In this document: positions 1-749 of the stretch, one piece after another | How the letters are laid out: every line of letters starts with the position of its first letter | How positions within the stretch are numbered: the first letter of the stretch is position 1 | Assembly (NCBI GenBank): GCA_026184295.1 | Contig: JAHCJK010000008.1 | Location: 1-64,000, forward strand | Length of the DNA stretch: 64,000 nt | Source: Planctomycetota bacterium | GTDB lineage: Bacteria; Planctomycetota; SZUA-567; H5-PLA8 | Direction of reading: 5' to 3' | The notes under the pieces: generated by a model | The model's database searches: none | Seen by the model: only the letters and a program-made list of their open reading frames with translations | What the model was told of the DNA's origin: nothing | Translations under genes and position numbers: made by a program

Positions 1-332
1 TTCTTCACGGGTTCGCGTCCGCCGCTGAAAAGGAAGTAAAGCCCCGCGATCAGGATCAGCGCGCCCACGCCGAGCAGCGCGGGCGGCAGCGCCTTTCCGC
101 CCTGCGCTATCGCGGGCTTCAGGCGCGCGGAGGTCGCGCGGCTGGAACGCGTGGGCTGCACGCGCGCCTTGGTCGAAGGCCCGACGCGCGGCACGGGCTG
201 GGTACCGGGCGTGCCGGCGGGCGCGCACTGCGCGCAGGTGTAGCGGTTCTCGTCGAGCGGGAAGGCGAGTTTGTTCTCGAGGTCGCTTTCGGAGATGCGG
301 CGGCCGCAACTTTCGCAGTAGACGATTTGCAT
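1..332 (-). CDS. Zinc-ribbon, single-pass membrane protein (3' end outside window)
   Basis: The gene runs off the left edge; about 110 codons are visible, starting at the ATG at 332. The N-terminus carries two CxxC pairs (C6/C9 and C33/C36), a typical small zinc ribbon. A Pro/Arg/Thr-rich linker (about residues 40-80) follows, then one strongly hydrophobic segment (about 84-103). The visible end is a short basic, Gly-rich stretch. This is an N-terminal cytoplasmic zinc finger tethered to the membrane, with the rest of the protein beyond the window. I do not recognise a specific family. Such zinc-ribbon/TM proteins are common and mostly uncharacterised in Planctomycetota. No clear ribosome-binding site is visible. 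Confidence 0.75.
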   Translation of the reverse strand, partial: MQIVYCESCGRRISESDLENKLAFPLDENRYTCAQCAPAGTPGTQPVPRVGPSTKARVQPTRSSRATSARLKPAIAQGGKALPPALLGVGALILIAGLYFLFSGGREPVK

Positions 333-414
333 GGAGCGCGCTCGCCGGCCGGGGAGGGTGCGTCGTCGGGCATCCATCTTAGGTTAGGGCCGAATGAAGT
401 CCACCAAAACCGAG

Positions 415-430
415 TGGCACGTTCCTTGCA
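415..430 (+). promoter_or_regulatory. Sigma-54 (RpoN) promoter
   Basis: The sequence TGGCACGTTCCTTGCA matches the sigma-54 consensus TGGCACG-N4-TTGC(A/T) at every defined position. GG (-24) lies at 416-417 and GC (-12) at 428-429, the required 12-nt phase. Transcription would start near 441, about 67 nt before the ATG of the small gene at 508. No bacterial enhancer-binding protein gene is visible in the window, so the activator is unknown. Confidence 0.85.
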
Positions 431-507
431 TTGGCTGGAACGGAAGCATGGGGGAGTGCACGAGGGCGTCCAAGAACACTGGTCACCTTTGAGAAGGGGG
501 TTCAAAC

Positions 508-627
508 ATGGCGCAGGTTCGCTTGAATTCGAAGGAAGAAGTTGGGGTTAATTGGGGTCAGATGGCGATTACGACGGTGGTTGCACTGGCGCTTATGGCC
601 GGCGGCGCGTGGTGGATGCTGCACTAG
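508..627 (+). CDS. 39-residue single-pass membrane microprotein
   Basis: The ORF starts at ATG 508, preceded by a purine-rich AGGGGG ribosome-binding site. It encodes 39 residues: a polar N-terminus (MAQVRLNSKEEVGVNW) followed by one transmembrane helix (about residues 19-37, rich in Ala, Val, Leu, Met, Gly) ending in WWMLH. It lies between a perfect sigma-54 promoter and a strong intrinsic terminator, so it forms a complete monocistronic unit, which argues that the ORF is real. I do not recognise the family. By analogy with other membrane microproteins it may modulate a membrane complex, but nothing in the sequence proves this. Confidence 0.7.
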   Translation: MAQVRLNSKEEVGVNWGQMAITTVVALALMAGGAWWMLH

Positions 628-694
628 GGCGGACGATGTACAAGATTTGGTAACGCTTTTTGACACCGCTTTGACAAATTTCGGCAGTCGTAAC

Positions 695-749
695 GCATGC
701 GCCGCTATGGAGTTCGCGGGAGAACTCCATGGCCGGCGCGTGCTTTTTT
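695..749 (+). terminator. Rho-independent terminator of the microprotein unit
   Basis: A stem of about 21 bp forms between 695-715 and 722-743. Its top is a perfect 9-bp arm pair (ATGGAGTTC/GAACTCCAT) around a 6-nt loop, and the lower part continues with one bulged base (734) and two G-U pairs. Six T residues (744-749) follow directly. Confidence 0.88.

Follow-up and report, generated by a model that had tools for sequence, protein, structure and literature searches.

Does the start of this contig hold a complete sigma-54 transcription unit devoted to a single membrane microprotein? The question concerns positions 415 to 749 of the window, i.e. of the whole 64,000-nucleotide stretch analysed here, which begins where contig C341 begins, in a genome of 6.39 Mb and 362 contigs. 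An earlier note had proposed such a self-contained unit with an envelope or stress function; the unit is backed by the joint conservation of reading frame and promoter, by rpoN and by about 24 activators in the genome, and the envelope or stress function stays hypothetical.

The promoter and its product

The unit comprises the following features:

415-429, plus strand: sigma-54 promoter core of 15 bases, TGGCAC (-24) and TTGC (-12), from the sequence and its conservation in five family members
441, plus strand: putative transcription start, placed by standard sigma-54 spacing 12 nt after the -12 GC
494-500, plus strand: ribosome-binding site AAGGGGG, 7 nt before the ATG, from the sequence
508-627, plus strand: ORF of the 39-residue microprotein MAQVRLNSKEEVGVNWGQMAITTVVALALMAGGAWWMLH, from conservation, third-position excess, hydropathy and AlphaFold2
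660-665 and 671-676, plus strand: two copies of TTGACA between ORF and hairpin, from the sequence
695-743, plus strand: terminator hairpin with 21 bases per arm and loop GCGGGA, from folding
744-749, plus strand: T6 tract of the terminator, from the sequence; absent in G001, the second genome of this genus

The core, TGGCACGTTCCTTGC at 415-429, fully matches the sigma-54 core TGGCAC-N5-TTGC and is followed by ATT; in TGGCACGTTCCTTGCA (415-430) the -24/-12 core plus the following G and A match the consensus. GG and GC lie 10 bases apart, in the -24/-12 arrangement of a sigma-54-dependent transcription unit. Directly before the core the window displays a G, where the published consensus has a pyrimidine. 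Genome-wide (6.39 Mb), the 15-base core occurred six times against four occurrences of reversed-pattern controls, which is near chance and not significant alone; in the window, TGGCAYN5TTGCA with at most one mismatch was encountered once (1.15 expected). The promoter pattern alone was therefore rejected as proof, and the unit stands above chance because ORF and promoter are conserved together in four other genomes.

The 39-residue product is a predicted single-span inner-membrane microprotein. A short charged N-terminus with EVGVNW, (E/D)VG(V/I)NW in the family, precedes one transmembrane helix. All five members displayed one hydrophobic stretch (19-residue mean hydropathy of 1.7-2.7) and, at the C-terminus or close to it, a histidine or a single basic residue. 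AlphaFold2, run on the single sequence, returned one helix over residues 4-38 with a mean pLDDT of 82.9. Neither the microprotein nor the unit had a match in Pfam, NCBIfam, PHROG, PDB or Rfam, and nothing direct was found in the literature on sigma-54 microproteins.

Conservation across the taxonomic family

Five out of the seven genomes of the taxonomic family carry the ORF, each in one copy; the two without a hit are fragmented assemblies. The ortholog in G001 is also 39 residues long, is 59% identical and is flanked by the same two genes as in the window, of which one codes for a LacI-type regulator and the other for a divergent membrane protein with a zinc ribbon. In the window, the zinc-ribbon protein with its transmembrane segment (3-377, minus strand) is cut by the contig end; in its G001 counterpart (L008 1820-3031), a 3-keto-disaccharide hydrolase-like domain gave a weak match that stayed under the Pfam cut-off. 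A second genus is represented by G004 and G006, where MNKHTNPSEVGINWKHLIIGSVSALVLCGIAMFLLLKM and MSKLQIREDVGINWVHLGVGLVSALLVCGILIMLFLKG precede an AraC-type gene, and the more divergent member of a third genus (G003), MAESRAEKHEDIKWLEVLIALCVSLGAIYGVLWYFMR, lacks the VG of the (E/D)VG(V/I)NW motif and lies upstream of a GlnE-like gene (both neighbours named by eye). The members from these three genomes scored only E 0.002 to 0.2 before joining the profile; the grounds for including them were size, layout and promoter, and their later strong profile scores are circular. A profile search of 343 genomes of the phylum yielded nothing else convincing beyond the five members; hits outside the taxonomic family, including those in Oleibacter and Comamonas, were either fragments of large proteins or short matches lacking support.

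Substitutions were most frequent at third codon positions, both between the window's own genome and G001 (20 third versus 11 first and 10 second) and between G006 and G004 (21 third versus 11 first and 11 second). This conserved short ORF is thus under coding selection, as looked for in a membrane microprotein. Since neighbouring genes differ between genera, with no conserved partner gene, what is conserved is the promoter together with the microprotein. LacI was rejected as a conserved partner: the LacI orthologs of G004 and G006 lie elsewhere, without the microprotein. Judged from these sequence comparisons, the microprotein family is genuine and had no name before, a new family of a known kind.

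Each of the five copies has exactly one TGG-N9-(G/T)GC within the 330 nt that precede its ATG. These promoter sites, GTGGCACGTTCCTTGCAT, CTGGCATGCATGTTGCAT, TTGGTATGCGTCTTGCCC, TTGGTCCAATTCTTGCAA and TTGGCCCGCCACGTGCTT, lie 72-95 nt upstream (positions -94, -93, -72, -91 and -95 relative to the ATG); when any base was allowed before GC, G004 gained a second, weaker match. With the discovery copy left out and a measured rate of 0.001 per base, the chance of four further hits in the 41-base zone is ~3e-6, a guide and not an exact value, for the four copies were treated as independent although G004 and G006 are close relatives, and the calculation was set up after seeing the hits. Comparison of the members' upstream regions revealed no shared upstream motif or activator site. 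The earlier note had proposed looking for the ORF with a conserved -24/-12 element in related genomes; wherever a relative has retained the ORF, it has retained the promoter as well.

The 3' end and the sigma-54 context

The window hairpin is very stable (-40.7 kcal/mol, z -6.6, no shuffle equally stable), and was not listed by a consensus terminator scan. The G001 counterpart, located after the microprotein around L008 1320-1450, is longer (-51 kcal/mol in the analysed fragment) and displayed an identical GCGGGA loop and a changed stem with pairing kept, without a T-run behind it. G003 displayed a strong hairpin followed by T-rich sequence, G004 and G006 only weaker hairpin candidates; one of the five copies is without a clear counterpart of the terminator hairpin. 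The terminator with T6 described earlier is thus present in the window, while its T-run is not conserved in the congener. Single-gene transcription is likely for the window and G003 copies, and less clear for the other members. The hairpin was rejected as a genome-wide repeat, related sequences elsewhere not forming it.

TTGACA, in either orientation, was found 3' of the stop in all five genomes, at 7-44 nt in four and at 217 nt in G003, and was not encountered in the 330 nt upstream (window, L008, L062, L063 and L064). It is statistically weak, as 24% of shuffles share some 6-mer and the lineages include only three independent ones; it is possibly an activator or regulator site.

The genome contains rpoN, being one of 12 that have it among 13 relatives (own genome included), and enhancer-binding activators, as a sigma-54 unit needs; about 24 strong sigma-54 activator domains were counted in it and about 24 in G001, none of them located on C341 or, in G001, on contig C2. 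Other sigma-54-like sites in these genomes precede genes for response regulators, secreted enzymes, prepilin-like proteins and a HAD-type phosphatase (named by eye), so microproteins are not the only genes that sigma-54 would serve. TTGGCAT-N5-TTGCA stands before orthologous HAD-type phosphatase genes of the window's genome and G001 (L097 1501-1517 and L104), forming a conserved sigma-54-like unit, and strong sites stand before response-regulator genes in three genomes (L102, L006 and G006 C1 849486). In a census of G006 (1.2 Mb) with self-set scoring weights, the microprotein was the sole family-supported small and strongly hydrophobic ORF (19-residue mean above 2) that immediately follows a high-scoring site. 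Consensus scoring gave five sites versus two controls at the top threshold, a small excess that serves as context only.

Possible function and rival explanations

The gene is probably a monocistronic, activator-gated sigma-54 gene for an inner-membrane accessory or effector microprotein. Plainly observed are the conservation of ORF and promoter, the single copy, rpoN with its activators and the lack of a conserved partner gene. A signal would switch on one of the ~24 unlinked enhancer-binding activators, and only then would sigma-54 RNA polymerase transcribe the gene. The single-span microprotein would enter the inner membrane and, once induced, most likely bind either to itself or to a larger membrane protein, the partner being a guess; its (E/D)VG(V/I)NW stretch would lie at the edge of the membrane, and its helix would serve as the contact surface. 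Because the neighbours change between genera, the gene for the partner probably lies elsewhere. Confinement to one taxonomic family, the two fragmented genomes of that family without a hit, the lack of a motif shared upstream and the missing VG in G003 were counted against this explanation. Somewhat more tentatively, the family may be lineage-specific, its own sigma-54 promoter travelling along as a minimal unit, and may form the dedicated output of one enhancer-binding activator gating a membrane process.

CydX, KdpF, AcrZ and MgrB are accessory membrane microproteins of 30-50 residues with one transmembrane helix and short polar ends. The present microprotein shares their size class, single helix and short polar ends, but differs from them in its sigma-54 control, in the absence of a Pfam or NCBIfam match and in having no plausible partner gene adjacent. 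Its nearest working analogue is E. coli PspG, encoded outside the main operon under control of sigma-54 and the activator PspF; PspG acts as an effector in the inner membrane, associating with itself and binding PspC (PMC3068692). That precedent tempers the earlier statement that sigma-54 control of a single microprotein is unusual. A functional PspG counterpart, protecting the proton-motive force as the envelope-stress effector of a phage-shock-like system, is nevertheless considered unlikely, even though PspA homologues are present in all five genomes (G000, the window's own, G001, G003, G004 and G006). Simple patterns revealed no good sigma-54 site upstream of these homologues, to which the microprotein gene is unlinked, and searches of Pfam, NCBIfam and PDB sequences gave no Psp match. 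The microprotein is also shorter (39 residues, one helix), with no sequence relation detected in these searches, and a link to PspF or Psp would be conjectural. Placing it in the Psp system thus finds no support, given the lack of a visible sequence relation and of visible sigma-54 sites at the PspA homologues.

Qrr is a regulatory RNA driven by sigma-54. Like it and GlnZ, the transcript could act mainly as regulatory RNA, the peptide being secondary; this is held to be decidedly unlikely. It would be a short transcript, or the 3' part of one, from a sigma-54 promoter, and the long hairpin keeps its loop and pairing in the congener despite stem changes. Substitutions nevertheless track codon positions and the frame is kept, so that the element conserved across genera is a reading frame and not an RNA; the hairpin is not recognisable in other genera and Rfam gave no match. 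GlnZ, for its part, is likewise sigma-54-driven (PMC9731577). Highly improbable is a type I toxin-antitoxin pair in which the microprotein would be the small hydrophobic toxin, its gene ending in a structured 3' part. Small size, a single helix and a strong terminator suit such toxins in general, but the gene is single-copy in five genomes of three genera behind a conserved activator-dependent promoter, and a simple scan revealed no antisense promoter-like site, nor Rfam any match. A chance ORF beside a chance promoter match, as the near-chance frequency of the core alone might suggest, is barely credible and largely refuted by the joint conservation of both in five genomes.

Genes this short escape annotation. 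Comparison across genera indicates that a sigma-54 promoter can lead to a genuine microprotein absent from every family library searched, and conserved -24/-12 sites are suggested as a guide to microprotein discovery. For this lineage, the unit offers a small, testable handle on the role of its many activators.
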